From assembly GCA_002356435.2 (NCBI GenBank), contig AP018040.2:992001-1056000 (forward strand): a stretch of DNA of 64,000 nucleotides, in the 5' to 3' direction. The notes beneath the pieces were generated by a model, which made no database searches, was not told the DNA's origin, and saw only the letters and a program-made list of their open reading frames with translations. This stretch comes from Petrimonas sp. IBARAKI (GTDB lineage Bacteria > Bacteroidota > Bacteroidia > Bacteroidales > Dysgonomonadaceae). Positions 30,604-51,254 of the stretch are shown in pieces. Position numbers and translations under genes: made by a program. The stretch's first letter is position 1. Each line of letters opens with the position of its first letter.

Positions 30604-30639
30604 CAGAAAGTTAAATAAAATATTTGACCGCAAAATTTT

Positions 30640-30659: not shown

Positions 30660-30683
30660 TTATATTCTTATCATTATTTATCT

Positions 30684-31085: not shown

Positions 31086-31100
31086 ACGGAGAAGAAAATT

Positions 31101-33929
31101 ATGAATAAACAGCAAAACAATAATTACGATACGTTGGTAATCGGAGGCGGAATTGCCGGCCAAGAGGCGGCGTTAAGCCTTGCTGATATGAACCATAAGG
31201 TGCTGCTGGTAGAAAAAGGACTTTCCATTGGAGGGAAAATGATTCAATTGAGTAAGGTGTTCCCTACGCTCGACTGTGCCGCATGTATCACTACCCCCAA
31301 GATGTCGGAAACAGCGCGTCATCCCAATATCACGTTGATGCTGAACAGTGAAATTAACGGAATAATTAAAAATGCCGACGGTGATTTCGAGGTAAACGTA
31401 ACCAATAAACCGCGTTATGTGATTCAGGAAAATTGTACGGGCTGCCAGGAATGCGAAGTAGTGTGTCCCGAAGTTCGGAACGATGAATACAATATGAATC
31501 TCGCAGGAAGAAAGGTTGCCTACATTCCCTTTAGCCTGGCTAATCCGCGTATTGCGACTATCGATCGTCAAGGACATTCTGCTCCTTGTATCAATGAATG
31601 TCCGGGTGGCGTAAAAGCATACGGATATATCACTTTGGCCCGAAATGGGCAGTATGAAGAAGCGATGAAACTTCATCTGGAGGACATACCTTTCCCCGGT
31701 AGTTTAGGGCGAGCCTGCTATCATCCCTGCCAAAACGCCTGTACGCGTGGATTGGTGGAAGAACCAGTAGATATACGGAAGATAAAACGCTATTTTTCCG
31801 ATTGGTACTACGAAAAATATCCGCAAGCGCCTGCTGTGGAAATCAAAGAAAATACCGGAAAGAAAGTGGCTGTAATCGGTTCCGGGCCTGCGGGAATTAC
31901 CGCTGCTTATCATCTTGCGTTGAAAGGACATACGGTGAAGATTTTTGAAGCCGCTCCCGGTGCGGGCGGTATGTTGCGTTTAGCCTTACCGGAATATCGT
32001 GCGCCGAAAGATGTGGTGGATAGAGATTTACAGAATATCACCGTTTTAGGAGTTGAAATTGAAGTAAATAAAAAAATAACCGACCTTAAATCGCTTAAAG
32101 AACAAGGGTTTGACGCCGTTTTTGTTGGAATTGGAACACACAGGGCGATGTCATCGGGAACCGAAGGTTCTGATTTGAAAGGGGTGGTAGATTGTCTTAC
32201 TTTCCTTCGTGAAGCCAATATCGGTAAACGCGAAGACCTGACAGGTAAAAAAGTGATGGTGATAGGTGGTGGAAATACCGCTATCGATGCCGCACGTACG
32301 TCACTTCGTCTTGGTGCTGGAAAAGTGATCGTGGTGTATCGCCGCAGTCGTGAGGAAATGCCTTGTTTCGCTCCCGAAATTGAGGAAGCTGAAGAAGAAG
32401 GTGTGGAAATTATGGTGCTGCGTAATCCGTTGAAGTATATCGGGGAAGACGGGCAACTCACACGGATCCAGTTGACTAAAATGCAGTTGGGCGAAAAAGA
32501 TGCGAGCGGACGCCGTAGCTCCGAACCAATCAATGGTTCTGAATACATTGAAGATGTGGATTATGTAATCGAAGCCATTGGACTTCGTGCCGATACCAAA
32601 GCGTTTGACGGACAGGTAGATTTGAATAAAAACGGAACCATCCGTACCGATGCAAAAACATTGCAAACATCTGTAGATTATATTTTCGCCGGAGGCGATA
32701 CCGTAACCGGCTCTACCACGCTGATTGAGGCTGCAGGGCAAGGAAAGAAAGCCGCTTTTTATATGGATAAATGGCTGCGTGGATTGAATATGTTCGATTT
32801 TGAAGATGGCGATAAACTTCCTGCCATCGATAAGAGAATCGTTTTGGGCAGATTCAAAGGCGAAAAACGGCCACAAGTGAAAAATGCAATGATGCCATTG
32901 GCGGATCGCGCCCGCAGTTGGGAAGAAGTGGAAAAAACATTCACTGAAGAAGAGATGAAAGCGAGCACACAGAGATGCCTGGATTGCAGTAACTGCCGTG
33001 AGTGCCATCAATGCGTGAATATTTGTCCTGCCAACGCCATCGACTTCTCACAAAAATCGAAAATTACGGAAGTTAAAGCAAAATCGGTAGTTGTGACTAC
33101 GGGTTACAAACTGTTTCCGCCATCAGCCAAACCCAATTACGGATATGCAAAATACGCCAACGTGATAGATTCGATGCAAATGGACAGGTTGATCGCACCC
33201 ACACGTCCTTTCAACAATGTCCTTCGCCCGAGCGATGGAAAAGCCCCCGATAATATTGCATACATTCTTTGTACGGGATCCCGGGATTCGGCCATTGAAA
33301 ATGGAGGTTGCGGTTCCGATTGCATCAATAATCCTATTTGTTCACAGATCTGCTGTATGTACTCCATCAAGCAGGCGCAATTACTGATGGGTGCCTTGCC
33401 GATGGCGGATATTACCATTTACTACATGGACATTCGTGCATTCGGTAAGGGATATGAAGAGTTCTATCAGCAGGCTAAAGGAATGGGAACCAATTTTGTG
33501 AAAGGAAAAGTGGCAAAAATCCGTGAAACTGAAGATGGTAAAGGTGACTTGATTGTCCGCTACGAAGATGTGACCAAAGGAGTGGTAAAAGAATCCAAAC
33601 ACGACCTGGTGGTACTTTCCGTAGGTGTTGTGCCGAATAAAGAGGTTTCAACTATGTTTAAAGGAGAGATTCTTGAGTTGGACGATTTCAGTTTTGTAAA
33701 ACAAATAGACGAACTGGTCAGCCCTGCTTTGACAAGCATTGAAGGGGTATTTGTGGCAGGTGCCGCATCAGGGCCGAAAGATATTCCCGATTCCATTCTG
33801 TCGGCCGGCTGTGCCGCATCGGAAGTTGCCGGATACTTGAACAGAAGAGAGGCCCTTTTAGACGATAAAAGAACTCAGTTTAAGGTGATGCAAAAGTCAA
33901 CAATGAGCAAATCTGTTTTACAACATTAA
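31101..33929 (+). CDS. HdrA/QmoA-like flavoprotein with inserted GltD-type domain
   Basis: A 942-residue fusion. The HdrA-type FAD motif is VIGGGIAGQEAALSLADMNH (about residues 13-32), followed by FPTLDCAACITTPKMSE and the 4Fe-4S motif CTGCQECEVVCPEV. From about residue 175 a GltD-like module is inserted: its N-terminal cysteines (CINECPGG, CYHPCQNACTRG), an FAD site VAVIGSGPAGITAAYHLALK and an NAD(P) site VMVIGGGNTAIDAARTSLRL. A further cluster CLDCSNCRECHQCVNICPAN and the HdrA C-terminal part close the protein. It could accept NAD(P)H electrons and pass them to the Hdr/Qmo partners. Confidence 0.9.
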   Translation: MNKQQNNNYDTLVIGGGIAGQEAALSLADMNHKVLLVEKGLSIGGKMIQLSKVFPTLDCAACITTPKMSETARHPNITLMLNSEINGIIKNADGDFEVNVTNKPRYVIQENCTGCQECEVVCPEVRNDEYNMNLAGRKVAYIPFSLANPRIATIDRQGHSAPCINECPGGVKAYGYITLARNGQYEEAMKLHLEDIPFPGSLGRACYHPCQNACTRGLVEEPVDIRKIKRYFSDWYYEKYPQAPAVEIKENTGKKVAVIGSGPAGITAAYHLALKGHTVKIFEAAPGAGGMLRLALPEYRAPKDVVDRDLQNITVLGVEIEVNKKITDLKSLKEQGFDAVFVGIGTHRAMSSGTEGSDLKGVVDCLTFLREANIGKREDLTGKKVMVIGGGNTAIDAARTSLRLGAGKVIVVYRRSREEMPCFAPEIEEAEEEGVEIMVLRNPLKYIGEDGQLTRIQLTKMQLGEKDASGRRSSEPINGSEYIEDVDYVIEAIGLRADTKAFDGQVDLNKNGTIRTDAKTLQTSVDYIFAGGDTVTGSTTLIEAAGQGKKAAFYMDKWLRGLNMFDFEDGDKLPAIDKRIVLGRFKGEKRPQVKNAMMPLADRARSWEEVEKTFTEEEMKASTQRCLDCSNCRECHQCVNICPANAIDFSQKSKITEVKAKSVVVTTGYKLFPPSAKPNYGYAKYANVIDSMQMDRLIAPTRPFNNVLRPSDGKAPDNIAYILCTGSRDSAIENGGCGSDCINNPICSQICCMYSIKQAQLLMGALPMADITIYYMDIRAFGKGYEEFYQQAKGMGTNFVKGKVAKIRETEDGKGDLIVRYEDVTKGVVKESKHDLVVLSVGVVPNKEVSTMFKGEILELDDFSFVKQIDELVSPALTSIEGVFVAGAASGPKDIPDSILSAGCAASEVAGYLNRREALLDDKRTQFKVMQKSTMSKSVLQH

Positions 33930-33941
33930 GGAGGAACGGTT

Positions 33942-36146
33942 ATGAGAAAAAGAATTGGTGTATATATTTGCCATTGCGGCGGAAACATTTCCGATTATGT
34001 AGATGTGGAAGAACTGAGCAAAATGTTCCACAAAGAAGACGGCGTAGTCGTTTCGAAAGATGTGATGTTCGCGTGTGCTGACTCCAACCAGAAAGCGATG
34101 GTGGAAGACATTCAGAAACACAACCTGGATGCGATTGTGGTAGCTTCTTGTTCGCCAAAACTCCACTTACATACGTTTCGTGGCGTGGCAGGACGCGCAG
34201 GATTAAATCCTAACAACTATGTTCAGGTGAATATCCGCGAGCAATGTTCCTGGCCACATAGCGATCGTCCACGCGAGGCAACAGTTAAAGCAGCCGGATT
34301 AATCCGCGCGGGTATCAACCGCGTATCATTCTCCGAAGCGTTGGACAACATAGAAATAGAAGTGAAAAAAGCAGCGATGGTTATAGGTGCCGGAATTTCG
34401 GGTATGAAAGCTGCTATTGATCTGGCACGATCCGGAAATGAAGTTTATCTGGTTGAAAAAGATTATTTTGTTGGAGGACGAATTACGCAGAGAGAGAAAC
34501 TCTTTACTACCGGACAAAGCGGAAAAGAAATTGTGAAAAAACTGTACGATGAAATTAAATTGTACAAAAATATCACCGTTTTCACCGGAGCCACCATTGA
34601 AAAAGTAACCGGAAGTTTGGGCAATTTCAATATTGAGGTGAAAGTGAAACCACGTTATATTAATGGAAAGATTGACAAGCAAACCGTGAACCGGGCAATG
34701 GATGATTTACAGGTGTACGTGGATGACGAATTTAATTTTGGACTGTCAAAACGGAAAGCTATTTACAAAAATTATCCAGACGCATTACCCGATGTTCCCG
34801 TTGTGGATGTGGAAGCGCTCAAAGATCACCCGGATTATCTGGAAAAGTATAAATCGGTTATCAATCTGAACGAAAAGGAAGAAACCATTGCGTTGCTGGT
34901 AGGCTCTGTACTTGTTACTACTGGATTTGACAATTACGAGCCTAAAGAGGGTGAATTCGGTTACAAAAATATCCCGAACGTGATTACACTTCCGCAATTG
35001 AACAGGTTAATGGAATTATCGCCAGAAAAATTGATTTACAACGGGAAAGAAATTCACAATGTGGCGTTTATTTACTGCGTTGGAAGCCGCCAGAAAAAGG
35101 GTGAAAACAAATACTGCTCACGTCATTGCTGCACTTCGACCATTTATACGGCGTTACAATTGAAAGAGAAATACGGAAAAATCCAAAACTTCCACCTGTA
35201 TCGCGACATCCGTACGTACGGTAAACAGGAAATTCTGTACGAACAGGCATCGAAACAAGGCGATTTGTTTTTCAAATACGAAGAAAAAGAATTGCCTACC
35301 GTGGAGATGAATGGAAAAGGTATTTCGCTGAAGGTAAAAGACTACCTCACAGGTAAAAAGGAGTTGGAAATCGCTCCCGATCTGGTGGTGCTTGTAACTG
35401 GAATGGTGGCACGTACGGATGCACCGCATATTTCGGAGTTATTTAAAATTCCAATTGGAAATGACAAGTTTTTCAACGAAATACACCCGAAGCTGAAACC
35501 GGTAGAAACGGTTATCAAAGGGGTGTATATCGGCGGTACATGTCAGGGACCGAAGAATGTGAGTGAAGCGGTGCAGTCTTCGCTGGCGGGAGCTTCCAAA
35601 ATAACGGCATTGCTGAAAAGCGGTACCGTGATGGGCGATCCGGTTGTGGCGCGTGTAAATGCTGATGCTTGTACTTGGTGTGGTAAGTGCGCCGAAGTGT
35701 GCGATTACACGGCAATTAGGGAAACCGTTAATGAAGCCGGCAAACATATCGCAGGTGTAAACAAGGGCGTTTGTGCGGGTTGTGGAATTTGTGCGCCGGT
35801 TTGTCCCGTGAATGCTATAGAAATAGCAAAATATACCGACAACGAAATAGAAGCGATGATTGACGGTTTTGCAGCCAAAGTGGAAATCAAGGAAAAAGAA
35901 GCATCCGGTATTACCGAAGAAAAAGCAGACGTTGTTGCAGCTCACATGAAAGAGTATCCGCAAATCTGGAAAGATATTCTAGCTACCATCGAATCGGATA
36001 AAAAAACTATTCCCGAAGTGGTAGACATGCTGAAAATTGCTCCCGAAATGGTTACTTATCATTTAATGACAATGAACAAATACGGTGTGGTAGCACCTGC
36101 AGGGACAAATGAAAAAGAAGAATATTATTATTACAAAATGAAATAG
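33942..36146 (+). CDS. Second HdrA/QmoB-like iron-sulfur flavoprotein
   Basis: A 734-residue protein. The N-terminal HdrA segment IGVYICHCGGNISDYVDVEE and the FAD motif AAMVIGAGISGMKAAIDLAR (about residue 145) are followed by the Cys region YCSRHCCTSTIYTAL. Two 4Fe-4S ferredoxin motifs follow: CTWCGKCAEVCDYTAI and CAGCGICAPVCPVNAI (about residues 570-625). The last 80 or so residues (KEYPQIWKDILATIESDKKT, MLKIAPEMVTYHLMTMNKYG) look like a winged helix, an unusual tail. It lies 12 bases after the first HdrA-like gene and before the QmoC-like gene. Confidence 0.88.
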   Translation: MRKRIGVYICHCGGNISDYVDVEELSKMFHKEDGVVVSKDVMFACADSNQKAMVEDIQKHNLDAIVVASCSPKLHLHTFRGVAGRAGLNPNNYVQVNIREQCSWPHSDRPREATVKAAGLIRAGINRVSFSEALDNIEIEVKKAAMVIGAGISGMKAAIDLARSGNEVYLVEKDYFVGGRITQREKLFTTGQSGKEIVKKLYDEIKLYKNITVFTGATIEKVTGSLGNFNIEVKVKPRYINGKIDKQTVNRAMDDLQVYVDDEFNFGLSKRKAIYKNYPDALPDVPVVDVEALKDHPDYLEKYKSVINLNEKEETIALLVGSVLVTTGFDNYEPKEGEFGYKNIPNVITLPQLNRLMELSPEKLIYNGKEIHNVAFIYCVGSRQKKGENKYCSRHCCTSTIYTALQLKEKYGKIQNFHLYRDIRTYGKQEILYEQASKQGDLFFKYEEKELPTVEMNGKGISLKVKDYLTGKKELEIAPDLVVLVTGMVARTDAPHISELFKIPIGNDKFFNEIHPKLKPVETVIKGVYIGGTCQGPKNVSEAVQSSLAGASKITALLKSGTVMGDPVVARVNADACTWCGKCAEVCDYTAIRETVNEAGKHIAGVNKGVCAGCGICAPVCPVNAIEIAKYTDNEIEAMIDGFAAKVEIKEKEASGITEEKADVVAAHMKEYPQIWKDILATIESDKKTIPEVVDMLKIAPEMVTYHLMTMNKYGVVAPAGTNEKEEYYYYKMK

Positions 36147-36220
36147 TCAAATAGCGCAGGAATTAAAGCTTCGAGATTTAAGTCTTTGTCTCTTTTTCCT
36201 GGCTCTAATAATCTTAAGAT

Positions 36221-37273
36221 ATGACAAGAGTTAATCCTGAATTTGCAACAGAGTTAATTAAATATGGAGTAGGGGATTTCAATGCGTGTTTTAACTGCGG
36301 AAATTGTACGGCTACCTGCTCTCTTTCTACCAACGACAGCTCGTTCCCCCGCGAAATGATTCGATACACCACACTGGGTTTGGAGGACGAAATCAAATCA
36401 TCGTTGAAGCCTTGGGAATGTTACTATTGTGGCGAGTGTTCCACGGAATGTCCACGTCAGGCAAATCCCGGTGAGCTGATGATGTCTTTGCGCCGCTGGC
36501 TCACGGCCAAATATGATTGGACAGGGCTTTCGGGTCTGTTTTATAAATACCTGCCGGCATTTCTTACTGCCATGGTACTGGTGTTTGCGGGGGTATTGTT
36601 CTTTGCCAATTCGGTAAATTGGGAATTGGAAAGAATGCTTCATTACGGGCATTTATTTGAAATGTTTGCCATAGCAACCGTTTTTGTGGTAATTTTTATT
36701 CCGAACTTATTGAGGATGTGGTATTTCACAGTGATAAGAGCGGGTGTCAAAGTCCCATTTAAAAATTATTTCACTGCGTTAAGCGACCTGTTTGTGCACA
36801 TGTTTACACAGAAACGTGCCAAAGATTGTGTTGACAATCATTTCCGGTGGTTAGAGCACCTGATACTGGTAATCGCATATCTTTCGCTGTTGTTTACTAC
36901 CGTGTTTCTAAACTGGTTTGGCACTCAAAATCTGTTTGTAGTCATTCTCGGATATTTGGAAAGCGCCTTTATTTTTATCATCACGGTGGATTTTGTGAAA
37001 GATCGCATTCAGAAGAAAAAAGCGTTGACTAAAAACTCCAAACCATCTGACTGGTTTTTTGTAATTTGGCTTATGTTGATGGGGTTAACAGCGTTTTTTG
37101 TACGTTTATTTATCGATTTTAATATCCTTGAAGGAAATAAATGGCTTTACCTTTTCCATTTGATGGTATTGGCACAATGGGCGTTGATTATTGTCCCTTT
37201 CGGTAAATGGACTCACTTTTTATATCGCTCATTTGCGATGTATTTTGCAAAAATAAAATCAATGAACAGTTGA
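36221..37273 (+). CDS. QmoC/HdrC-like membrane iron-sulfur subunit
   Basis: A 350-residue protein joining an HdrC-type domain with two 4Fe-4S motifs (CFNCGNCTATC near residue 23 and CYYCGECSTECP near residue 68) to a membrane domain of about five helices, like the heme b domain of QmoC. Candidate heme-ligand histidines occur in the membrane part (MLHYGHLFEMF, NHFRWLEHLILV, LYLFHLMVLAQ). QmoC links Hdr-type flavoproteins to the quinone pool. It is the last gene of the operon and converges on the GH92 gene 13 bases away. No HdrB gene is present in the window. Confidence 0.88.
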   Translation: MTRVNPEFATELIKYGVGDFNACFNCGNCTATCSLSTNDSSFPREMIRYTTLGLEDEIKSSLKPWECYYCGECSTECPRQANPGELMMSLRRWLTAKYDWTGLSGLFYKYLPAFLTAMVLVFAGVLFFANSVNWELERMLHYGHLFEMFAIATVFVVIFIPNLLRMWYFTVIRAGVKVPFKNYFTALSDLFVHMFTQKRAKDCVDNHFRWLEHLILVIAYLSLLFTTVFLNWFGTQNLFVVILGYLESAFIFIITVDFVKDRIQKKKALTKNSKPSDWFFVIWLMLMGLTAFFVRLFIDFNILEGNKWLYLFHLMVLAQWALIIVPFGKWTHFLYRSFAMYFAKIKSMNS

Positions 37274-37286
37274 TAAGGGGTGGCTC

Positions 37287-39638
37287 TTATTCTGTATCCG
37301 GGTTAGCTCCCATGGTGAGTTTTACTTTCCCACCCGATGCTATATCGCTGAAAGGAATAAAAACAGATTTCTGTATTTTACCGTTTAACGACAAAGACTG
37401 AACGTATTTATTCTCTTTCGAGTTGTTTTCCGTTTCAATCACAAAAGTATCCCCGGGGTAATATTTCTGATTAAGTTTAATTTCTATTCTTTCGAAAAGT
37501 GGACTTCCCAACTGCATTTTCGGGTTTTCTTCGGTAAGTCCTTTCACATCGAATAATCCCATTGCAGCCATCACGTACCAGGCACCCAGTTGTCCCTGAT
37601 CCTCGTCTTGTCCGTACCCGTAGCCGTGTATGCCTTCTGTACCGTAAAATTCATTGCAGATGGTGCGTGTCCACTTTTGGGTGAGGTGGGGCTTTCCCGA
37701 AAAATTGAAAAGCCAGGCAGTTTGCAGGTTGGGTTGATTGCCGTGGTTGTATAACGCATGCAGTCCGGAAAAAGCGTTGAGCTCTTTTCCACCTCCGAAA
37801 ATATTACTCTGAGAAATAATGAAGATGCTGTCGAGTCTGTTGTTAAAGATACTCTGTCCAACTTTCTCTATCAGTCTTTCGGGTTCGTGTGGCACATAGA
37901 ATGTGTATTGGATGGCATTTCCTTCCTGAAAACCTATCCAGGGAGCTGTTGGATCAAAGTCTTTGATAAAACTGCCATCGGTAAGGCGTGGACGCATCAG
38001 GTGTGTCTCTTTATCAAAAATGTTTTCCCAACTTCCGGCAAGCTTGTTAAGCAAACCGTAGTCTTTGGTTTTGTTCAGTTGCTTGGCAAACTGCGCTACG
38101 GCATAGCAACTAAAAGAATATTCCAACGTGTGCGATGTGCCAAACATCCAGCACTCGGGAACAGTTTTGTTTTGCAGTTCCGGAGCATAAGGAGCAAATC
38201 CGTTTTCGACAAAAAAGCTAACATCCGGTTTTCCGGCTCCCAACGGCCTGTTTTTTCCATCGATTTCGTTTTTAAATGCTGCTTCATAAGCCAGGTTTAT
38301 GTCGAAGTCTCGGATACCGCAGTTATAAGCCGCGGCAATGGCCAATCCTGTAAAATTGGTGCCTACGCCTGAAACGTATCTGCTGTTTGCAATTCCGTCG
38401 CCCAGCCAGCCGGTATCCTTATAAACAAGTAACTGGCTTTTAATCCAATCGGAGTAGTATTCAGGATAGGCCAGTGTCCACAGCTGGGTAATGTTCCAGA
38501 ATGCTCCCCAGATGGCATCGGTGTTGTAATGATGGTGGGCGGGAGTTCCCTGGGAATCGGTTTCGATTTGGCCAATACTTCCATCATTTTTGGGATAAGC
38601 TCCGTTTACGTCGCTTGCCAGCCCACGGCCGAGGATAGCATGATACAAACCGGTATAAAACTTGATTTTGTCGTCGTTGGTTCCTCCTGTAACTCTGATT
38701 CGGCCGATTTTTTCTTTCCACACTTCGTGCGCGGCTTGTTTTGCCTCTTCGAAGGTTTTTGCGGCGGCTTCGGTTTCGTAGTTCAGTTTTGCGTTATCGA
38801 TAGAAGTATATGACAATCCAATTTTCACGAGGACTCTTTCTTTTTCCTTCGTGCTGAACTTAACGGCCATTGTACTACCTACGCCCTTGATTTCGTTTCC
38901 GAAGAGAGGTTTTTCTCCCCGGAGGAAAACAAGGCTTTCCTCTACCGGCTTGTCTAGTTTGGCATAGAAAAACATTGTAAGATCGGTGCCGCTCTGGTAT
39001 TTCTTAACGTACTCAGGTGTGGTAGTAACAAACCCATCAATGGTTTGATTATCAATCAAACGAATGTGTGCATCTTTCACTGCACCGCTTTCACCCAATT
39101 GGTTGCCGATGTCGAAAATGATGTAAGCACTATCAGTCTCGGGAAAGATGTATCGCTGATAGCCAACTCTATCTGTGGCAGTAAGCTCAACTTTAGTGTC
39201 ATAGTCGTTGAGTACAACACTGTAATAGCCTGTAGTAGCGACTTCTGTATTCTTATCAAATTTGGAACGGTATCCTTCGTGGGGGTTTTCGAGGCTTCCG
39301 GGACGGGTTTTCACCTCACCCACCACCGGCATCAGCATGACTCCGCCGATTTGAAATTCGTGAAAACAGGCAAATCCCTCAATTGATGTATGACCGTCTT
39401 CGTAACCGACGGCTTCCCAACCACTCTTATTTCCATAAGAGCCGTTAGTGGAGGGGGCCAGTTTGGCCATTCCGAAGGGTAGCGCTGCCGGCGTGTAGAA
39501 AAACCATCGACTGTGTGTGGTTCCTATGTTGGGATTGACGTACCGCGTGAAATCTTCCTCTACATTATCTGCTTTGTTGGCACATGTAGAGCAGGTAAGC
39601 AACAAAAGCAAGAACATCAGGTTACGAAACAAAGACAT
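37287..39638 (-). CDS. GH92-family alpha-mannosidase, lipoprotein
   Basis: A 783-residue glycoside hydrolase. The lipoprotein signal ends LLLLTCSTCANK. An N-terminal beta-sandwich begins FTRYVNPNIGTTHSRWFFYT, and the (alpha/alpha)6 catalytic domain follows. The acid region is GFQEGNAIQYTFYVPHEP and the metal/base region GQDEDQGQLGAWYVMAAMG. GH92 enzymes remove alpha-mannose from N-glycans or fungal mannans with calcium. It is the last gene of the mannose locus, 13 bases after another GH92 gene. Confidence 0.93.
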   Translation of the reverse strand: MSLFRNLMFLLLLLTCSTCANKADNVEEDFTRYVNPNIGTTHSRWFFYTPAALPFGMAKLAPSTNGSYGNKSGWEAVGYEDGHTSIEGFACFHEFQIGGVMLMPVVGEVKTRPGSLENPHEGYRSKFDKNTEVATTGYYSVVLNDYDTKVELTATDRVGYQRYIFPETDSAYIIFDIGNQLGESGAVKDAHIRLIDNQTIDGFVTTTPEYVKKYQSGTDLTMFFYAKLDKPVEESLVFLRGEKPLFGNEIKGVGSTMAVKFSTKEKERVLVKIGLSYTSIDNAKLNYETEAAAKTFEEAKQAAHEVWKEKIGRIRVTGGTNDDKIKFYTGLYHAILGRGLASDVNGAYPKNDGSIGQIETDSQGTPAHHHYNTDAIWGAFWNITQLWTLAYPEYYSDWIKSQLLVYKDTGWLGDGIANSRYVSGVGTNFTGLAIAAAYNCGIRDFDINLAYEAAFKNEIDGKNRPLGAGKPDVSFFVENGFAPYAPELQNKTVPECWMFGTSHTLEYSFSCYAVAQFAKQLNKTKDYGLLNKLAGSWENIFDKETHLMRPRLTDGSFIKDFDPTAPWIGFQEGNAIQYTFYVPHEPERLIEKVGQSIFNNRLDSIFIISQSNIFGGGKELNAFSGLHALYNHGNQPNLQTAWLFNFSGKPHLTQKWTRTICNEFYGTEGIHGYGYGQDEDQGQLGAWYVMAAMGLFDVKGLTEENPKMQLGSPLFERIEIKLNQKYYPGDTFVIETENNSKENKYVQSLSLNGKIQKSVFIPFSDIASGGKVKLTMGANPDTE

Positions 39639-39651
39639 AGGCAGATTTTGT

Positions 39652-42600
39652 TTATTGTTTTAATCCCCACTTGTAGTTTGGCTTATCGCCCATTTCAAGT
39701 TCCAACATTCCGCCTTTCAGTAAATCAGGGGCGGGAAACTTGAAGCTGTCCAACGGTTTGCCGTTAAGCTTAGCCGACTGTACGTACTTGTTGATGCGCG
39801 ATGCACCGTTTGCCTTGATGATAAATTGTTTGCCTCGTCCATAACGGTTTCCTAAATTGATGACAACCTGCTTGTACAAAGGGCTGGCGATTTCATAAAC
39901 AGGATTTATGTTGCATCCGCCATCGGTCTGAAATAATCCCAGGGCAGTCGTAACAAACCAGGCGCTCATCTGGCCCTGGTCTTCATCGCCAAGATAGGCA
40001 TCGCCGGAGCCATATCCGTAATACCGTTCTAAAATGGAACGGCTCCATTTTTGTGTCTGCCAGGGTTCGCCCACCCAATTGAATAGAAAAGCAAAATGCA
40101 TACTTTGCTGGTTGCCCTGTACTACCGGAAAATCACCGTAACGCTCACCGGGGGCGTTATATCGCCACACTTCACTTTCTTCGAATCCTTCGGATAACCG
40201 ACTTAGAAAACGATCTTTGCCAATCATTTTTGCTAGCTCCGGAACATTCTGCGGAACGAAAAAAGTGAGTTGCCAGGCATTTCCTTCCACGTAGTGTTGG
40301 TTTACCCCCGTTACAAAAGGATCAAAATCTTTCTCGAAAGAGCCGTCGCTCTTACGCAGACGAGCATAACCGGTTTCGGGATCAATGGTGTTTTTCCACC
40401 ATGTGCCACGATCGGCAAAATAATGGTAGTCATCTTTTTTTCCTAACGCCTCGGCTAGTTGGGAAACCGTCCAGTCGTCAAACGAATACTCCAGCGAATT
40501 GGAGAAACGGCCAAGGTCGGAAGGTACATATTTGTATTTAAGATAAGCCTCTATATCCCGGTTTCCTGTAAGCCCGTCACCAATTTTCTGAGGTTGAACG
40601 GTTTGCATTTTCTTTATAGCGGAAAACATTTTCTCTACATCGTAATCGCGGATCCCCATCTGATACGCACTTACCAGCAACGGAATTTCGTGTTCGGCAA
40701 CCATAACCGGAATGTACTCCATTCCTGCAGGGCCTTTGGCAAGCATGCCGTTGGCATCATACATGGCCAGTTGAGATTTTACCCATCGGCTGCTCCATTC
40801 CGGAGCGATCAGGTTCCAGACCTGGTTCAGGTTCCAGAACGTGTTCCAGAAAGCATCACATCCCAACGCTACTTCATTTGCCGGGTCTTTTAGTCGCTGT
40901 ATTTTTTCGGTGGCATCCACCCATCTGCCGTCCACATCACTGAATGTATTGCGACAAAATGCCCGGTACATGTTAGTATAGAAACGGGTTTTTTCACGAC
41001 TATCGTTTGTTTCTATATTCACTCTTGACAAAATATCGTTCCAGGTTTTTTGGTTGTTATTGCGTACTGCATCAAAACTCCAACCGAATGGTTTTGTAAC
41101 CTCTTCGCTTAGGTTCCGGCGTGAACCTTCCATATCCACAAATGAGATTCCCGTACGTACCTGAACGACCGGGTTTGTTTTTGTGTCGAATTCAGCGAAG
41201 CAACCTATCTTATCTGGTTTTAAGGCGTTTACTGCTTTTTCATCGCTAAAAATCGTATCGTTTATCCAGGTGCCAAAATGCTTGATCGGTTTGTCAAATT
41301 CAATGGTGAAGTAAATGGTGTAGTCCTGATTGTCATCGGCAGACCATACTTTTGTGGTTTGCTGGACGCTGTATCCTTCAACGGTGTAGTCGTTTACCTG
41401 GTTGACGGATGCATCCAGGATATTATACCGGTATTCGGCAGGGATCTTCAAGTCAATCATCACCCGGCCGTCTTTGTCCTGCGGATAGGTATATCGTTGA
41501 AAGCTGCAACGGGTGGTGGACGTGAGTTCAGCTTCAATGTCGTAATCGGTCAGCCTGACTGCATAGTACCCCAACGGAGTTTTTTCGGTAGTTTTATCGA
41601 TTGCGGAACGGTAGGCTTCAGGATCTTTTTCGATTTGTCTCTGATCGCCTATTTTCGTTTTTAACGCTCCGTTTACGGGCAACATCCCCAGGCCCGCCAT
41701 CGTCCATTCGTGAACGTGACTGAACACGCCCACACTCTCTATGGACGGATCGTAACCTGCCTGCCAACCGGCATTCTCGTTATCGGGACTGAGTTTCACC
41801 ATGCTGAACGGCATCCACGGGCCGGGTGCGATCATCTATCTCGAGTGTGCTGTCCCTATATGTGTGTCCACATAGTCGGCTGGAGTTACAATATGTTCCG
41901 GAGTACGTAGTACCGTATCTTTTTCAACCAAATCTCCGTTTATTAAAACCTCGTATACACTCAATTTTTCCTTTTTTACTGCCGGCATGGGTGCTTCGAG
42001 TTTGTACCGCCCCTTTTCCAGCCTTTGCTTTAAGATTGTTTTACCGTCTAATCTCACGGTAAGTTCAGGCAAATCTTTCAGGTGTTCCACATCGATCAAT
42101 AACGGTTGGGCTTTTTCGTTGAGCTGGTAGCCGGCAACTTTTACGTTTCGAAGATATACGAAAGGGTTTAACGTTTCCAGTTTGGCCGAAGACGGTCCTT
42201 CCAGACGAACATCATCCAAAATCAGCCATGAACCTTCGATTACCTTTAATTGAACCGTATTTGAACCCGTTTTAATGATGTCATCGAGCGGTATTTCTAT
42301 CGTATTCGGAGTGATTTGACTGTAATCACCCGTGAGCGACGCATCGCTTTTCCCTTTGGGTAAAACGGTTTTATACACATGGCCGTTCACGGTTATTTTG
42401 AGTAAAGGCGGGTTTTTGCTGTGAGCATCCAAGACGTCCACCACCAGTTTATAACCGGTACCTGATCCGGTTTCTTTCATCCGGAAAAGTATGTTGATCT
42501 CCTGAGTTCGAATACCTGCACCGTTTAGAGAGCCGGCCCATACATCTGATGTCCCGGGAAGAACGTATGGAAAATCAGTTTTCGGATTTGACCACCCTAT

Positions 42601-42774
42601 GATGAAGTATTTATCTTCCCAACCGAAATCATTTTTCAGGAAGTCGGCGTACTTGTCCGGGGCCAATGCGAATCCGGCTGTATTCTTATCTTTTTCCCCG
42701 ATATTCCAGACGATTTGAGCCTGGATAAGGTTTGCAATTGAAATCAGATAAAATAAAACAACTGTTTTTTTCAT
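39652..42774 (-). pseudogene. GH92-family alpha-mannosidase gene split by an in-frame amber codon
   Basis: The full reading frame would encode about 1040 residues. The first part (41836-42774, 312 codons) has a signal peptide and a rhamnogalacturonan-lyase-type domain (IVWNIGEKDKNTAGFALAPD). It then begins the GH92 domain as YVDTHIGTAHSR and stops at TAG (41836-41838). The second part (39652-41835) continues in the same frame as MIAPGPWMPFSMVKLSPDN to the end, with the catalytic regions EGNAWQLTFFVPQN and GDEDQGQMSAWFV intact. The paralogue next to it has Trp at the stop position (HSRW), so TGG probably became TAG. Restart at the ATG directly after the stop would make an enzyme without signal peptide. 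Confidence 0.88.
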
Positions 42775-42814
42775 TTGGAAATTATTAAAGGGTATAGAAA
42801 CAGATAGTAAATAG

Positions 42815-43906
42815 TTAATCCAACATCCTCAGGGCATAGGCATAAGCCCCTAAAGCAATGGCTTCGCTGGTCCCTAAGCTACTTACAGTTACGCCTGTCT
42901 TTTTACCTGTGTTATGACTCATTTTTTTATCTGAACCGGGAATGGAGACCCAAAAAGACTCATCCATCAAAAAGGCTTTCTTTTCCGTATCGCTCATAAG
43001 GTTATATACCCTCATCTGGAGACGTGGAAAGACACTGCCGCTTAGCATGCTGCGCGTTCCGTTCATTTCATCTACCATTGCCGGCAAAATATATTTGTAT
43101 GCTTTGGCGATCCCTCCTCCTATTACCACAATACCATCCACAATGTTGAGCGATTCGGCAACGGTGAATCCGGCTACCCTGCCAAGCTCTTCGAAGGTGC
43201 CGATAGCTGCTTTCCTATTGCCTGGTCTTTCTCCCTCCGCTATATGATAGATTTCTTTGGGTGTGAGTTCAGTATCATCTCCCGACAGTTCCCGATATAC
43301 TCTTTTAACGGCACGAATGCTGACTCCTTCTTCCGATACCAAGCCGTTGTTGTATTTGTTTGCGGAACACCATACATCGCCCCCACAACCGTTGTCGCCC
43401 GAAAGCAATACATTGTTTATAACCACCCCGCCGCCAAAGCCTGTTCCTAAGGTAATTCCAAGCAGGTTTTTATATTGCTTGGAGCTTCCGGCCTTTTTCA
43501 ACTCGGCGTTTATTTCGGGCAACGCTCCAGCGAGGGCTTCACCATAAGCAAAAAGGTTCCCATCGTTGTTGATAAAAACAGGCAACCCGAATTTCTCAAT
43601 CAAGAAAGGGCCTAATGCCACACCGCCACGAAATGCGGGGAAATTGGGCAAATCACCTATTATCCCGTTTTCGTAATCCGCAGGGCCCGGAAATGCAAAG
43701 CTGATGGCAACAGGCAGATCATCCAGCTTTTTTTTTATTGTGCTGAAACCGTTAACAATCGTCTCCAGGCAAACCTCCCGGTTATCGGGATGAGAAGGTA
43801 ATATAACAGGATCTGTTATCTCCTTATTGCCGCGGATTGCCGTAAAGACAAAGTTGGTGCCGCCGGCATCCAACGTCAAAACTGTTCGTGGATCGTTACT
43901 GAACAT
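42815..43906 (-). CDS. ROK-family sugar kinase
   Basis: A 363-residue kinase with the ATP-phosphate motif VLTLDAGGTNFVFTAIRGN (about residues 9-27), the catalytic region PVFINNDGNLFAYGE and the second glycine loop GITLGTGFGGGVVINN. The usual ROK zinc motif C-x-C-G-x-x-G-C-x-E is not evident; NGCGGDVWCSANKYN is in that place. In a locus with mannosidases, a permease and mannose-6-phosphate isomerase, it is probably a mannose kinase. Fructose or glucose as substrate cannot be excluded. Confidence 0.85.
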   Translation of the reverse strand: MFSNDPRTVLTLDAGGTNFVFTAIRGNKEITDPVILPSHPDNREVCLETIVNGFSTIKKKLDDLPVAISFAFPGPADYENGIIGDLPNFPAFRGGVALGPFLIEKFGLPVFINNDGNLFAYGEALAGALPEINAELKKAGSSKQYKNLLGITLGTGFGGGVVINNVLLSGDNGCGGDVWCSANKYNNGLVSEEGVSIRAVKRVYRELSGDDTELTPKEIYHIAEGERPGNRKAAIGTFEELGRVAGFTVAESLNIVDGIVVIGGGIAKAYKYILPAMVDEMNGTRSMLSGSVFPRLQMRVYNLMSDTEKKAFLMDESFWVSIPGSDKKMSHNTGKKTGVTVSSLGTSEAIALGAYAYALRMLD

Positions 43907-45068
43907 TTTTCTTCAGGTTAAAGGTGAAAATCAGGATAAGTAAAAGAGAGGCAAAAATGACGGAAAGTGCGGCGGTAAAGCTGATACTGTCATTTATCAG
44001 ACCCTGGACAAAGGGGATAACAGCACCACCCACAACTCCCATAATCATCAGGGCAGATATCTCGTTTGAGCGTGAGGGAAACCGTTGTAATGCAAAAGAG
44101 AAAATAATGGAAAAAACATTGGCACCGGCAAAGCCCAGCATAAAAATCAACACCCTCAAACTCCACACCTCGTGTATGAGCATTAGAGCTAAATAAGATA
44201 GTAGTGCCACAAAAAGTGAAACGAGCAGGTACTTCATCGGCTTTATTTTCAACAGAAGGAACGTGCCCAAAAAAGCACCAGTTGTTTTAGCAGCAAAATA
44301 GACACTGTTTCCATAACCGGCATTTTCGAGCGTAAGTCCTGCATGTCTCATCAAAAGTTCAGGAATAGAGACATTTAATCCTACATCAAATCCAACGATT
44401 AAAAAAATAGATAAAAAACAAAAGAAAATAAATTTATCTTTTAATAATCCCAATGCGCCGCTAAATGTAGCAGGAGTGCTTTTGAACCCAAGCTCCTCTA
44501 CCTTGGAAAATGCAAGCAAGAATACGGAAATCACGGAGATTGCAGCAAAGACTGCAAACGTTAGCTTCCAATCCCCAAACCGGCTGGCTGTAAATCCCGC
44601 AACAATAGGGCCGAAAAAGGAACAAACAGATTTGATGAACTGTCCCAGTGTAAGGATACTGGCTGTCTTCTCCTTGTTGAACATGGCTGCTACAAGCGGA
44701 TTAAGTGATACTTGCAAAATAGTGTTGCTGATACCCAGCAGAATGAAGGCAATCAGTACCGTGTAAAACGTGTAAAAAAGAAAAGGTATGATCATTGCCA
44801 CACAGGTTGTTGCAAGCGCAAGCAGCACTGTTTTTTTTCTTCCTGCTTTTCCCATAAGAATTCCGGTGGGAATGGAGAAGATGGCAAACCAGAGGAATAC
44901 CATCATTGGCAGTGTCCCTGCGATCCCTGACGAAAGATTGAAATCGTTTTTGACATAATTAGTGGCGATACCCACTATGTCTACAAACCCCATGATGAAA
45001 AATCCGAAAAAAGCGGCAATGGGTGCAAGGACATTAGATTTCTTTGATGTGTTCATTGTATTATGCAT
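43896..45068 (-). CDS. MFS sugar permease (FucP/GlcP-like)
   Basis: A 390-residue inner-membrane transporter with about 12 helices and the MFS loop LMGKAGRKKTVLLALAT between helices 2 and 3. The start of the protein (APIAAFFGFFIMGFVDIVGI) and its length fit the fucose/glucose-type sugar:proton symporters of Bacteroidota. It overlaps the ROK kinase gene by 11 bases and the isomerase gene by 8 bases, so it is translated with them. It probably imports mannose. Confidence 0.85.
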   Translation of the reverse strand: MHNTMNTSKKSNVLAPIAAFFGFFIMGFVDIVGIATNYVKNDFNLSSGIAGTLPMMVFLWFAIFSIPTGILMGKAGRKKTVLLALATTCVAMIIPFLFYTFYTVLIAFILLGISNTILQVSLNPLVAAMFNKEKTASILTLGQFIKSVCSFFGPIVAGFTASRFGDWKLTFAVFAAISVISVFLLAFSKVEELGFKSTPATFSGALGLLKDKFIFFCFLSIFLIVGFDVGLNVSIPELLMRHAGLTLENAGYGNSVYFAAKTTGAFLGTFLLLKIKPMKYLLVSLFVALLSYLALMLIHEVWSLRVLIFMLGFAGANVFSIIFSFALQRFPSRSNEISALMIMGVVGGAVIPFVQGLINDSISFTAALSVIFASLLLILIFTFNLKKNVQ

Positions 45069-46836
45069 TAAATCTTACCGATGCTTTGATGGTAATACAT
45101 TCATTCCCTTTGGAGTTGCCATAAGGACGGACAGTATACGTTTTTATTCGAGCGGGGACAACAAAGGTCTCGGCATAATGGACAACGAAAGGTTCAAAAT
45201 CACCGTTTAAGCTCTCCACAATCACCGAATCGCCTTCTACCAGGTTTAGTACGTTTACCGAATCGTTGGTGTAGTGAGTTACTTTTTCCGTGAATATATG
45301 CCTCCTGGTTTCGATAAACTCATTTTTATGTAAGCCTGTTTTTTCTTCGCGTACCGTACCGGTATCGTTCAGGATTTTCACTTTATTCACCAGTTCACGG
45401 TAGGTAAATCCGGTATCTCTTCCCCACACGATAACCTTTTTGCCCCGATCTACGTTTATCGGGCGTGGTTTTCCGTCGAGTCCCAACCGTTGCCAGTCCC
45501 AGAGCTTAAAAGTAAAAAGATTGGGTGTTGAGCTGATTTCGAGTACCAATGTGTCTTTTCCCGAACAATGTACGGTCCCGCCGGGTATAAGGAAATGATC
45601 GTGTTTCTTTACGGGAACTTTATTCACGTATTTATCCACATCAAACACAAAGAAAGGATCTTTCTGAGCTTTATTTAGATCGGCCACCATTTCATCGGGA
45701 TTTATGTCGTTTCTAAGGCCCAGATACACGTAAGTATCCTCTTTGGTATCCATAATGTAATAACTTTCATCCTGTGTATATGCCAAGCCGAAGTTTTCCC
45801 GGGCGTATTCGGCCGTTGGGTGTACCTGCAAACTGAGGTTGCCACCTCCTATGGTATCCAAAAGGTCGAACCGGATAGGAAATTCTTTGCCAAAGCGGGC
45901 TTCGACAGGGTCTCCAAGCAACTCCCTGCTTCTCGTATACACCAGGTTAACCGAAGGCATCTCGAATTCAATGTCGTTAATTTTTAACAATAAACTGTTT
46001 TCTTCGGGTACACAGTCGAAACACCAACCAAAATTACTCACCGAACGGTCCAGATCACACACTTCTTTCATCCATTGTCCACCCCATGGTGCCGGATCGA
46101 AAAAAGGTACTAACCGGAAAGGAGAACTTGCCGCCTTGTCCATTCCCTTGAAGAAAGTCTCTTTGTCAATTAGTTTGGGCAGATCAACTTTGACTGTGTC
46201 GAGCCAGAAATCAACGGTGTCATAGATTGTTTTTTTGTGCTTGTCCAGTACTTTCCAGTCGTTGAAAAGGCCGCGTTTGTATTGAAGAGAAAAAGTTTCC
46301 TCTTTATTGTTCACACCCAGGCCGTTCACTTCCTTTCTTCGCATCCGTTGCTGGATCTCCCATCGGGGCATGTCTGCGTAAATGTTGATGTCGCCTGTTG
46401 TTACATATTGTGCCCCATATCCGAAGACGATCACAGTACCCGATGCCTGCTCAATACTTTCCCTGGCAAAACGGAGTTTCTCTTCATCGAAATAATCGCT
46501 GATGGAAAGGTTGGAATAGAAGCCAAAAAGAATGTCTTCGGTTAAAAACTGCTCGGTCAATGCGTTAATTTCATTTTCGGATTTAAAGATCTCCAATGTG
46601 TCGATAAGCCGTGCATTATTGATTTCTTGCAGCTTAGATTTTAATAAGTCATAGTAAACGCCTGTATAGCAGTCGACCGTCAGCAGTTTCGCATGTTCTA
46701 CCTTCCCGCTCACGAAAGAGGAAATGCTTTTCCACCCTTCAAGTATAAAGCCTTTCCCGATTGTAACAGCAGGACGCTTATCGTAATTGCTTTTTCTTTT
46801 CCGGTTCATATTTATATTATATGTTGGGTTTTTCAT
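45061..46836 (-). CDS. Class I mannose-6-phosphate isomerase with extra N-terminal domain
   Basis: About 590 residues from the ATG at 46836; the ATG at 46851 would be too close to the -7 box at 46862-46869. The C-terminal half is a type I phosphomannose isomerase cupin: metal-site residues lie in NLSLQVHPTAEYARENFG and KKHDHFLIPGGTVHCSGKDT. The N-terminal 230 or so residues (ITIGKGFILEGWKSI-like region through IYADMPRWEIQQRMRRKEVN) form a separate domain I cannot name; it faintly recalls nucleoside-kinase folds but lacks a P-loop. It converts mannose 6-phosphate to fructose 6-phosphate. Confidence 0.86.
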   Translation of the reverse strand: MKNPTYNINMNRKRKSNYDKRPAVTIGKGFILEGWKSISSFVSGKVEHAKLLTVDCYTGVYYDLLKSKLQEINNARLIDTLEIFKSENEINALTEQFLTEDILFGFYSNLSISDYFDEEKLRFARESIEQASGTVIVFGYGAQYVTTGDINIYADMPRWEIQQRMRRKEVNGLGVNNKEETFSLQYKRGLFNDWKVLDKHKKTIYDTVDFWLDTVKVDLPKLIDKETFFKGMDKAASSPFRLVPFFDPAPWGGQWMKEVCDLDRSVSNFGWCFDCVPEENSLLLKINDIEFEMPSVNLVYTRSRELLGDPVEARFGKEFPIRFDLLDTIGGGNLSLQVHPTAEYARENFGLAYTQDESYYIMDTKEDTYVYLGLRNDINPDEMVADLNKAQKDPFFVFDVDKYVNKVPVKKHDHFLIPGGTVHCSGKDTLVLEISSTPNLFTFKLWDWQRLGLDGKPRPINVDRGKKVIVWGRDTGFTYRELVNKVKILNDTGTVREEKTGLHKNEFIETRRHIFTEKVTHYTNDSVNVLNLVEGDSVIVESLNGDFEPFVVHYAETFVVPARIKTYTVRPYGNSKGNECITIKASVRFNA

Positions 46837-46861
46837 CGTATGTATGAACATGCTTCGGGTG

Positions 46862-46869
46862 CAAAAATA
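46862..46869 (-). promoter_or_regulatory. -7 element TATTTTTG of the mannose operon
   Basis: CAAAAATA on the plus strand reads TATTTTTG on the minus strand, in the 100-base gap after the GntR gene. It suggests that the isomerase-permease-kinase-mannosidase genes have their own promoter and supports the start at 46836. A -33 TTTG is not evident. Confidence 0.5.
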
Positions 46870-46935
46870 ATCAATATCTCTGCTGTTGAATCTTATTTTG
46901 TGTTTTTTATGTTTTTTTAATGGATGAGGTCTGGC

Positions 46936-47691
46936 TTAAAAATTGGAAGAAAAAGATCTGGACTCTCTGACGCTTTCAATCTTATAACTGAATGAATCGG
47001 CTCTGTACCAACCGATATTGTATTCTATTGGCAGATCGTTTATGTCGCTTACAAATCTTTTACGGATAAGGATTGGATCTCCGACTTCAATTTCTAATTT
47101 TCCAGCAATGAATGGATTGGCACCGGATGCCCGGATTTCTTCTCTTGATGTTTTTACGATGATATTATAATCATTTTCCAATATTTCGTATAATGGCCGG
47201 TTAAAGTTCTCCGTACCATCCATTCTGATTTTAGGATTAAATTCCGAATGAAAATAGACAAAAGGGAAATTTTCTTTGCCGCGCAATCTTTCTAAACGCA
47301 GGACCTTCACCTGGTTAGTGATTTCAAAAAACTGCCTGGCATTTTCAGTGGGAGCCTGTTTGCTGATGTGTAGTTCGAAGTTTTCAATTTTCACTCCCAA
47401 TACTTTCATTTCCTGTGAAAAACTCAGCCAGTTGGTAGCTTCGCTGTATAAATTCTTTTCGGCAACTCTTGTCCCTACGCCCTTTTTGCGTATCAACAAC
47501 CCTTCCGTGACCAAGGTGTTGATGGATTGTCTTAATGTGTTTCTCGATATTTTTAATTGTTCAGACAATTCTACTTCGTTGGGCAGCATTTTCCCTTCTT
47601 TGTACTCTTCCTTCGTTATCAAGGCGCGAAGAAGCATTTCTGCTTGTTTGTGTAGAGGGACAGGGCTGTTGCGGTCTATTTTTAATTTCAT
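46936..47691 (-). CDS. GntR/HutC-family regulator with UTRA domain
   Basis: A 251-residue repressor-type protein. The N-terminal winged helix is MLPNEVELSEQLKISRNTLR, then QSINTLVTEGLLIRKKGVGT (about residues 36-75). The C-terminal UTRA ligand-binding domain follows (VKVLRLERLRGKENFPFVYF, then GDPILIRKRFV). The UTRA domain usually binds a sugar phosphate or small metabolite. It is upstream of and on the same strand as the mannose genes, so it probably controls them and senses mannose or a phosphate of it. Confidence 0.9.
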   Translation of the reverse strand: MKLKIDRNSPVPLHKQAEMLLRALITKEEYKEGKMLPNEVELSEQLKISRNTLRQSINTLVTEGLLIRKKGVGTRVAEKNLYSEATNWLSFSQEMKVLGVKIENFELHISKQAPTENARQFFEITNQVKVLRLERLRGKENFPFVYFHSEFNPKIRMDGTENFNRPLYEILENDYNIIVKTSREEIRASGANPFIAGKLEIEVGDPILIRKRFVSDINDLPIEYNIGWYRADSFSYKIESVRESRSFSSNF

Positions 47692-47718
47692 TTTTTTTGT
47701 GCAAAGTAAAAAATTTAA

Positions 47719-47747
47719 GTCTCGTCATAGATTGATCACTGTCTCGT
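47719..47747. promoter_or_regulatory. Direct repeats GTCTCGT in front of the GntR gene
   Basis: GTCTCGT occurs at 47719-47725 and 47741-47747, spaced 22 bases start to start (two helical turns), 28 bases upstream of the GntR start codon. Near the start lies a -7-like TTACTTTG on the minus strand. This could be the operator of the locus. Confidence 0.35.
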
Positions 47748-47778
47748 ATGGCTAAATAAGATCTGTATTGAGGTTCTT

Positions 47779-49263
47779 TTATTCTACTTCCCGTTGATTC
47801 CTGAAGTCATAAAATGTTTTTCTCATCAGGTCGGCGAGCGATAATTGATAATTGATATAGGCCCTCAGGTGGGAAGTATATGCGTTGTTCAACCTGTTTC
47901 TCTCTAAAGCCAAGCCTTGGCTGTCGATATCTCCGTCAGAAAAACGCTGCCGTGTTATCTCGAAACTCTTTTCAGCGACTAAAACATTCTTTTCCAGGAC
48001 TTGTAGCCTTTTCAAGTTGCTGTTTATGCTGGCGATGAGGTTTTTGACTTCAGTTTCTATTTCCCGTTCAACTTCTTCTTTGCGGTAATTGTACTGTTTT
48101 AGCCTCGATTCCGCTGCCCTTACCAAGGCCCGGTTTTCCCCCCAGTCCAAAATGGGTATGGTGACGGTCAGTCCGATTCCGTAGCTTGAGTTTCTGTCAA
48201 CAAGATTGTTGTACGAGTTTTTGATCGATTGCATAAAACTGATGTTTGCCCGGTGATCAATACCGGCCCTTTCGAAGTACGCATCCACACTTCCTTTTAT
48301 CAGTCCGTTGGCTTTTTGTTGCTTAATGTTAAGCTTTTGCAACTCGATTTGAATTTCCTGTTCCCGGACTTCCAAACGGTTTTTCAGGGCTAACTCAACT
48401 GCTTTTGCCGGATCGATAAGGACGATTTGATAGTTCAGTTGGTTATTCAAGGCTATGCTGTCATTCAGGTCTAATCCCAATAATTCCTTGAATGAATTTC
48501 TTGCTGATACTTCATTTAAGACGGCAATATCGTGATTATTCTGAGCTTCGGCCAAATCCACCTCCATTTGAAGTGCATCTACTTCGCGGATGAGTCCGGC
48601 GGCAAATTTATTTTTTGATATTTCGTGAGCTTCCATCTGTCGCTCCAGGTCGAGAGACGCAATTTCGGTGCTCCGCTGCAACGACAGTAAATTGTAATAT
48701 GAACTGCTTACCTGATAAATAAGGTTCAATTCTTCTCTTTTGAACTGTTTGCTGGAGCGCTCATAATCCAGTTCGGCCCTTTTCAGGGTAGATTTAATGC
48801 TGTTGTAGGCATAAAACGAATTGAGCGGTTGGTTAAATCCAATCCGGGAACGCAGGCGCGATGAACGGAAATTGTTTTTAAGGTCTTCGCTGCTCGACAG
48901 CATATTGTTGATGAAAATATTGCCATCGGTAGGGAGTGGTTGATTGATGGTCAGCACTCCGGAGTATCCCAGTTCTTTTACCGGATAGTAATAAGTAATT
49001 CCCGTAGTATCTTTCCAACTCTCGATGGTTTCGTTGTACTGCGGCGCGCCGAGGGTCATATCGATATGTGTTTTCAACCGGCTTGTTGCCGATTTCAGGT
49101 TGAATTCGGCAATTTTGAGGTCTTCGCTTAACCTCAACATGCTGTAGCTCTTTTTCTTGGCTATTTCTATACTCTCTTCCAGGGTAAGCGTGTAAGCCGA
49201 CTGGCTTTGGAGCAATAAACAATAAATGAATATAAATGAACCTGCTAAAAGAAGTTTTTTCAT
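47779..49263 (-). CDS. TolC-family outer-membrane efflux protein
   Basis: A 494-residue outer-membrane factor with a signal peptide ([20 protein letters not shown]) and the two repeated helical halves of the TolC fold. Examples are [20 protein letters not shown] at the start and [20 protein letters not shown] near the end. It forms the exit duct for the MacB-type transporter encoded just upstream. Its start overlaps the ATPase stop by 4 bases. Confidence 0.92.
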
Positions 49264-49991
49264 ATTATTTCGTCATTTTGAAATGTATTCAAAGAGGGTA
49301 GGGAAGTCCTTTTTTGGTTAGGCTTGTCGGAATGAATCATGCCGTCTTTCAGGTAAATGTTCCGATGAGCGTAACTGGCGATTTCTTGCTCGTGAGTGAT
49401 TAAAATAATTGTGTTCCCTTCGGCATGCAGTTCCTCAAATAACCGCATAATTTCTATTCCTGTTTTTGAATCGAGGGCACCGGTCGGCTCATCGGCCAGC
49501 AAAATACCCGGAGTAGTCACTAACGCCCTGGCAATGGCCACACGTTGTCTTTGGCCTCCGCTTAGCTCAGCAGGTTTATGAGTTACCCGATCCGACAGCC
49601 CGACCCTGTCCAACGCCCTCAACGCTCTTTCTTTGCGCTCCGCACTCGGCGTTCCTGCGTAAATCAGGGGGAGTTCCACGTTTTGAATGGCATTTAGTCG
49701 TGGCAATAGGTTGAAATTCTGAAAGATAAAGCCTATTTCCTTGTTTCGCATGATCGATAGGGCATCGTCGTCCAATGTGCTTACATCAACATCGTTAAAG
49801 TAATAATGACCGCTCGAGGCCGTATCCAGGCATCCCAGGATATTCATTAACGTTGACTTTCCCGAACCCGACGGTCCCATAATAGCAACGTATTCGTTTT
49901 TCTCTATATTGAGGTTTATGCCGTGGATAACAGGTATTTCGGCATCTCCCAACAAGTAATTCTTTTTTAAGTCTTTTATCTCAATCAGCAT
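49260..49991 (-). CDS. MacB/LolD-type ABC transporter ATPase
   Basis: A 243-residue ATPase with Walker [17 protein letters not shown] (near residue 39), signature [16 protein letters not shown] and Walker [13 protein letters not shown]. It has no membrane segment. It powers the MacB-type permease encoded 16 bases upstream. It overlaps the TolC gene by 4 bases. Confidence 0.94.
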
Positions 49992-50007
49992 AATTTCTAA
50001 CTTGTTT

Positions 50008-51246
50008 TTATTCGTATCGAATGGAGTCGACCGGTTTTAAATTGGCGGCGTTCTTTGCCGGTAAATAACCGAAGCTCACTCCCACGATTACCGAAAAAGA
50101 GAAGGCTATAAAGACAGAGTAGGGCTTTATAAAAGTGTTTATATCGGTGAACAGCGAAACTATGAGCGACAGGACAATGCCGGTGAGGACACCGATGATA
50201 CCGCCCGTGATACTTATTGCCACCGATTCGGTGACGAACTGGCTCATTATATCTATTTTACGGGCACCGACCGAGCGGCGGATACCAATTTCCCGTGTCC
50301 GTTCCATCACGGTTGCCAACATGATATTCATAATTCCAATACCGCCCACCAACAGTGATATGGCAGCAATAGCGCCTAACAGAAAATTATAGATTTGGCG
50401 TTCTTTTTCCTCTTGTTTTAGTAATTCGTAAGGAATTACAATGCTGTAGTCGTCGTTATTGAAATGATGGCGGCGCAGAATTTCGTTAATAATTTTGGAG
50501 GCTTCTACCAGTTTATCCGAATTTTTTAGTTGAACGGTTATTTGCTGAATTTCACTGGAGAGTGCATTCTCGCGAGTGAACCGGTTCAGAAATAAGGAGA
50601 GGGGCACAAACACATCCGTATTCAGGTCACGTGCAGCCAATTCGCCAACGGTTTCCGTAAAAAGGCTCTTCGATTCCAGTACGCCAATAACTTCCAGCCA
50701 CTGATCGTCAATTTTTACCAGTTTACCTATCGGATCCTCTCCTTTAAAAAAACCGGCTGCCACGCCGGCACCCAGCACGCAGACTTTCAGACGCTCGTTG
50801 TAATGTTTGTCATTGATGAAATAACCGTTCCGTACCTTGTAATTCATCATGGCTTGAAAGTCGGGAGTGATGCCGATAATGGTGGACTTTACCGATTTAT
50901 CGTTGTACCTCACGTCTGTGTTTTTCTCAGCCTGTGAGGCGATTCTTTCCACTCCGGGCACGATTTCTTGAATCACTTGGGCATCCTGGATGGAAAGCCC
51001 TTGCGAGAACTTCGCCCTCACTTCTTCCAACTCTTCATCGGACAGTGTTTTTTCGCGGATGATGATGTTGTTTACACCCAGATCCTGGTATTTAGCAATG
51101 GCTTCACGCTTGGCCCCTTCTCCGATTGATAACATTGTGATAACGGATGCCACACCGAAGATGATTCCCAACATAGTAAGGAAAGAACGGAACTTATGGT
51201 CCACTAGTCCTTGAAGCGCCAAACGAATATTTTCACCGTACTGCAT
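50008..51246 (-). CDS. MacB-type ABC transporter permease
   Basis: A 412-residue permease with the MacB plan: one N-terminal membrane helix ([20 protein letters not shown]), a large periplasmic domain, and three C-terminal helices around [20 protein letters not shown]. The coupling segment is [20 protein letters not shown]. In MacA-MacB-TolC systems it drives transport of toxins or peptides from the periplasm through TolC. The ATPase is a separate gene, unlike E. coli MacB. Confidence 0.93.
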
Positions 51247-51254
51247 AATTTACT

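Follow-up and report, generated by a model that had tools for sequence, protein, structure and literature searches.

A GH92 α-mannosidase gene interrupted by an in-frame TAG in Petrimonas sp. IBARAKI: probably a young pseudogene

Introduction

What does a single in-frame stop codon mean in a gene that otherwise looks sound? It may be a recent mutation, an error in the deposited sequence, a codon that is read through, or the border between two working genes. We address this question at a GH92 locus in a 64,000-nucleotide stretch of Petrimonas sp. IBARAKI (contig AP018040.2, positions 992,001 to 1,056,000; hereafter the window, to which unlabelled positions refer). The GH92 family consists of Ca2+-dependent exo-α-mannosidases, and its members in Bacteroides thetaiotaomicron include BT3130, BT3965, BT3990, and BT2199.

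Results

One gene interrupted by a single stop

The preliminary description of this locus placed a TAG between the motifs HSR and MIAPGPW, and the minus strand reads exactly so: CAC-TCG-AGA-TAG-ATG-ATC-GCA-CCC-GGC-CCG-TGG, i.e., HSR, a stop, and MIAPGPW. The open frame runs from an ATG at 42774 to a stop at 39652 and comprises 312 codons, the TAG, and 727 further codons. Along these 1040 codons we found no stop or frameshift beyond the TAG, so that both halves are otherwise intact, as had been proposed. The TAG does not lie in a homopolymer. The features of the gene and of its neighbours are listed in Table 1.

Table 1. Coordinates of the interrupted GH92 gene, its parts, and neighbouring genes in the window
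Feature	Position	Strand	Remarks
In-frame TAG, codon 313 of 1040	41836..41838	-	Column is Trp in 85/85 orthologous loci
5' half, 312-aa ORF: signal peptide-like N-terminus and CBM-like domain	41836..42774	-	Stops 12 residues into GH92N
3' half, 727-codon ORF from the ATG directly after the TAG: remaining GH92N and entire GH92 catalytic domain	39652..41835	-	Without signal peptide
CBM-like domain PF14683, residues 22-191	42202..42711	-	Pfam
GH92 N-terminal domain PF17678 (Glyco_hydro_92N), residues 301-544, across the TAG	41143..41874	-	Pfam
GH92 catalytic domain PF07971, residues 552-1030	39685..41121	-	Pfam
Second GH92 gene, intact, tandem, 783 aa	37287..39638	-	About 34% identity to the interrupted gene
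Sugar kinase-like gene of the ROK family, immediately upstream of the broken GH92 gene	42815..43906	-	In the probable mannose operon
MFS transporter	43896..45068	-	In the probable mannose operon
596-aa protein	45061..46851	-	Weak, sub-cut-off match to mannose-6-phosphate isomerase
GntR/UTRA transcriptional regulator	46936..47691	-	Opens the probable mannose operon

The stretches on either side of the TAG are one interrupted gene and not two adjacent genes, because the Glyco_hydro_92N domain runs across the stop. When the frame is translated through the TAG, this domain scores 198 bits (cut-off 34.5) and the catalytic domain 438 bits (cut-off 24.6). The N-terminus of the resulting 1040-residue protein is hydrophobic and, as judged by eye, signal peptide-like; the gene product is a predicted periplasmic or secreted α-mannosidase.

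The GntR regulator, the isomerase-like protein, the MFS transporter, the ROK gene, and the tandem intact GH92 gene probably form a mannose operon, which is whole apart from the gene broken by the TAG. There are 14 GH92 catalytic domains in the genome, i.e., 13 GH92 genes besides the broken one. The protein of the tandem neighbour reads THSRWFF at the site of the stop, in agreement with the HSRW motif reported for it earlier. No donor copy for gene conversion is evident, the other matches listed for the protein in its own genome being about 35% identical or less. Elsewhere in the window, a single ORF (24442-26613) carries urea-transporter and M23 peptidase domains.

Comparison with orthologous loci

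Is the stop shared with any relative? A scan of genome contigs with the 3' half as query yielded at least 573 relatives, of which the 80 best were kept; the scan may lack records of the window's own genome. Comparing the whole protein with the fetched loci by tblastn gave 137 rows over the site, paralogues included. Trp occupies the site in 116 of them, encoded by TGG in every case, and only the window has a stop there. When the best match per orthologous locus was retained (85 loci; L015 was excluded because L031 represents the same gene), the column was Trp in all 85, always TGG, and a stop in none. These results bear out the earlier view that a conserved Trp codon was altered by a single-base change from TGG to TAG.

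The gene is full-length and uninterrupted in 80 of the 85 loci. Among the remaining five, L010 is broken near the C-terminus by an IS insertion, the gene is cut by contig ends in L031, L071, and L096, and the alignment of L061 starts at residue 290, near a contig end, with the N-terminal part absent. In genome G001 the GH92 gene is split across two contig ends and keeps the Trp, the upstream ROK gene, and the downstream second GH92 gene (GH92b). No orthologue was found in six of eight other genomes of the genus that were searched, where matches were about 33% identical or less and several genomes are incomplete. In-frame stops also occur in two other GH92 relatives. A distant paralogue (L109, G047:C110, about position 3530; about 38-41% identical; genome incomplete) has one in-frame TAG at a different place, in the CBM-like part, and one in-frame TAA is reported for a further relative from the same genus (L114, G007:C121).

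An independent disruption in the sister genome

The closest genome, G003, encodes a GH92 protein 81% identical to that of the window. Its homology ends after residue ~995, and the missing C-terminus is found about 2.1 kb further on. The interrupting element contains a 627-aa ORF with a DDE transposase domain; it spans G003:C1:1197787-1199877 (equal to L111:17788-19878, hand-counted), with 13-bp inverted repeats CCCACATTGCAGC and TTAA at both junctions. This ~2.1 kb IS is a disruption of the same gene that is independent of the window's TAG. No other disruption was seen in the comparison of 86 sequences, although four of these are truncated by a contig end or stop close to one.

The surroundings of the gene also differ between the two genomes. 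The window carries ~12 kb (42787-54855) between pdxH and the GH92 gene, consisting of the mannose-type operon and a six-gene MacB/RND-adaptor/TolC-type efflux cluster. G003 is without this segment, and pdxH and the GH92 gene are adjacent there. Likewise, at the position corresponding to about 30511-39657 of the window, G003 has neither the FAD/4Fe-4S oxidoreductase genes (31101-37273 in the window) nor the second GH92 gene. Relatives of the GntR, isomerase-like, MFS, ROK, and GH92b genes are found elsewhere in G003, at 54-67% identity.

How old is the stop?

Relative to G003, the non-synonymous divergence (pN) of the window's gene is 0.152 upstream of the TAG and 0.075 downstream, and the synonymous divergence (pS) is about 0.7 (near saturation). 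We polarised the differences using six outgroups. Downstream of the TAG, 15 changes fall on the window lineage and 18 on the G003 lineage (binomial p 0.73; 56 undecided, 5 in both), and so there is no excess divergence on the window lineage in this part. Upstream, the counts are 16 and 7, respectively (46 undecided, 18 in both). At near-invariant downstream columns, the window departs at 5 of 241, the 7th highest count of the 86 sequences, and two of the five departures are common to G003. These departures may be a weak hint of relaxed constraint, which is not decisive and is absent from the downstream polarised counts. Some conserved positions changed before the two lineages split: the window and G003 alike encode Gly at codon 880, where Trp is near-invariant, and Glu at codon 333, where the other sequences have Gln. 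Since the GH92 frame shows no clear decay, the TAG is either very recent or an error.

In-frame stops in the rest of the genome

We scanned 444 kb of the genome by codon usage for in-frame stops with coding-like flanks (1036 stops; locus L167 was dropped, being inside the window). The TAG ranked 21st and is thus not singled out by the scan alone. We inspected 17 of the 20 higher-ranked stops together with three ranked below the TAG, and the 17 higher-ranked ones look like ordinary gene junctions. Ten of the inspected stops were scanned with Pfam: in none does the best-scoring domain stretch extend across the stop, and two gave no Pfam match at all. Widespread stop-type frame damage in the assembly was considered and rejected, since interrupted genes are not obviously over-represented in the 444 kb sampled.

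Discussion

Which explanation fits these observations? A recent point mutation probably made an amber stop in this α-mannosidase gene and left a young pseudogene, the ordinary loss of a dispensable enzyme. The TAG at codon 313 is a disabling change in a frame that is intact among orthologues (80/85 at full length). We infer that the base is real in the organism and that active enzyme is absent. A wrong base in the deposited sequence, with the strain's gene intact, is unlikely, while retaining an appreciable chance. The TAG is a single transition with no other damage across the 1040 codons, the part downstream of it has the pattern of purifying selection, and a base-calling error would yield an identical picture, the lack of further damage included. 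Systematic nanopore errors driven by base modification are described in one published study (PMC10687267) and could apply here if the assembly came from that platform. However, the TAG lies outside any homopolymer, the assembly is a single contig with 99.99% completeness, the 444-kb sample is not visibly full of interrupted genes, and the sister species' copy is broken as well, by an IS. That the sister's copy was disrupted independently raises the likelihood of a real, tolerated loss in the window. Because this disruption and the 14 GH92 genes of the genome make a tolerated mutation plausible, we rank mutation above error, roughly threefold, a ratio set by judgement.

Two further explanations would keep a working product, and we consider each of them very improbable. 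Functional readthrough, in which UAG would be decoded as Trp or another residue to give the full-length enzyme, is compatible with purifying selection on both halves over the divergence from the sister. However, RF1 is present (prfA, 499 bits; cut-off 423), and TAG is an ordinary terminator, found at the end of 28 of the 176 long stop-free stretches sampled. A suppressor tRNA, a non-standard tRNA-Trp stem, and RNA structure were each sought and none was found: no gene among 47 for tRNAs has a CTA anticodon (at L153, "tag" denotes the anticodon of a Leu tRNA that reads CTA codons), tRNA-Trp is unremarkable, its anticodon being CCA and its anticodon stem predicted at 5 bp, and the RNA around the TAG folds worse than shuffled sequences (z +1.67), with no stem-loop after the stop and no notable local structure. 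Readthrough is also at odds with the lack of a stop at this site in any of the 85 orthologous loci. Gene fission into two separate working proteins could draw on the ATG immediately after the TAG, a layout allowing reinitiation, from which the second protein would start; yet this ATG encodes the conserved Met of the WMIAPGPW motif and is found in relatives without the stop, the break lies inside one domain, the second product would be without a signal peptide, and no relative is split at the same place. Among the options in the preliminary description, a very recent mutation and a sequencing error thus both stand, given the clean frame, the full-length orthologues, and no lineage excess, while readthrough is not supported in view of RF1, TAG usage, the tRNAs, and the orthologues.

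If the young pseudogene is taken as the starting point, translation from 42774 should yield only 312 residues, a signal peptide with a carbohydrate-binding-like fragment that is devoid of the catalytic domain. The ATG after the TAG could permit some reinitiation, whose product would be without a signal peptide and the first GH92N residues. With 13 further GH92 genes left and the rest of the operon whole, the loss is probably tolerated, and the same gene was lost separately in the sister species through IS insertion. It is tempting to go further and suppose that the gene is actively or repeatedly discarded in the genus, two sister species having broken it separately, one by nonsense and one by an IS; we think this improbable. 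On that reading, the enzyme would perhaps have become costly after the gain of the tandem GH92 gene, e.g., by exposing a glycan or serving as a phage target.

For annotation, the two ORFs should be described as one frame-interrupted GH92 gene, and the use of mannan or N-glycans by this strain should not be predicted from it. Together with the separate loss in the sister species, it illustrates, in a small way, parallel decay within a paralogue-rich enzyme family.

How does the gene compare with known GH92 enzymes? The protein has the two-domain architecture of the family, GH92N plus catalytic domain, above both Pfam and NCBIfam cut-offs, and solved GH92 enzymes align to it over residues 300-1037. 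It differs from the family in its extra N-terminal CBM-like domain and in the stop inside GH92N. The Trp at the column of the TAG is a feature of the HSRW subgroup and is absent from 7zgm, the best relative of solved structure. In BT3990, according to the published account, Trp88 contacts the +1 sugar (PMC5930347). The Trp column of the window gene could not be placed on this residue, and therefore we claim no catalytic role for it. Compared with young nonsense pseudogenes of bacteria, the gene shows nothing unusual: it has one disabling change, uninterrupted orthologues, and otherwise conserved sequence, and the separate IS knock-out in the sister species adds some interest.
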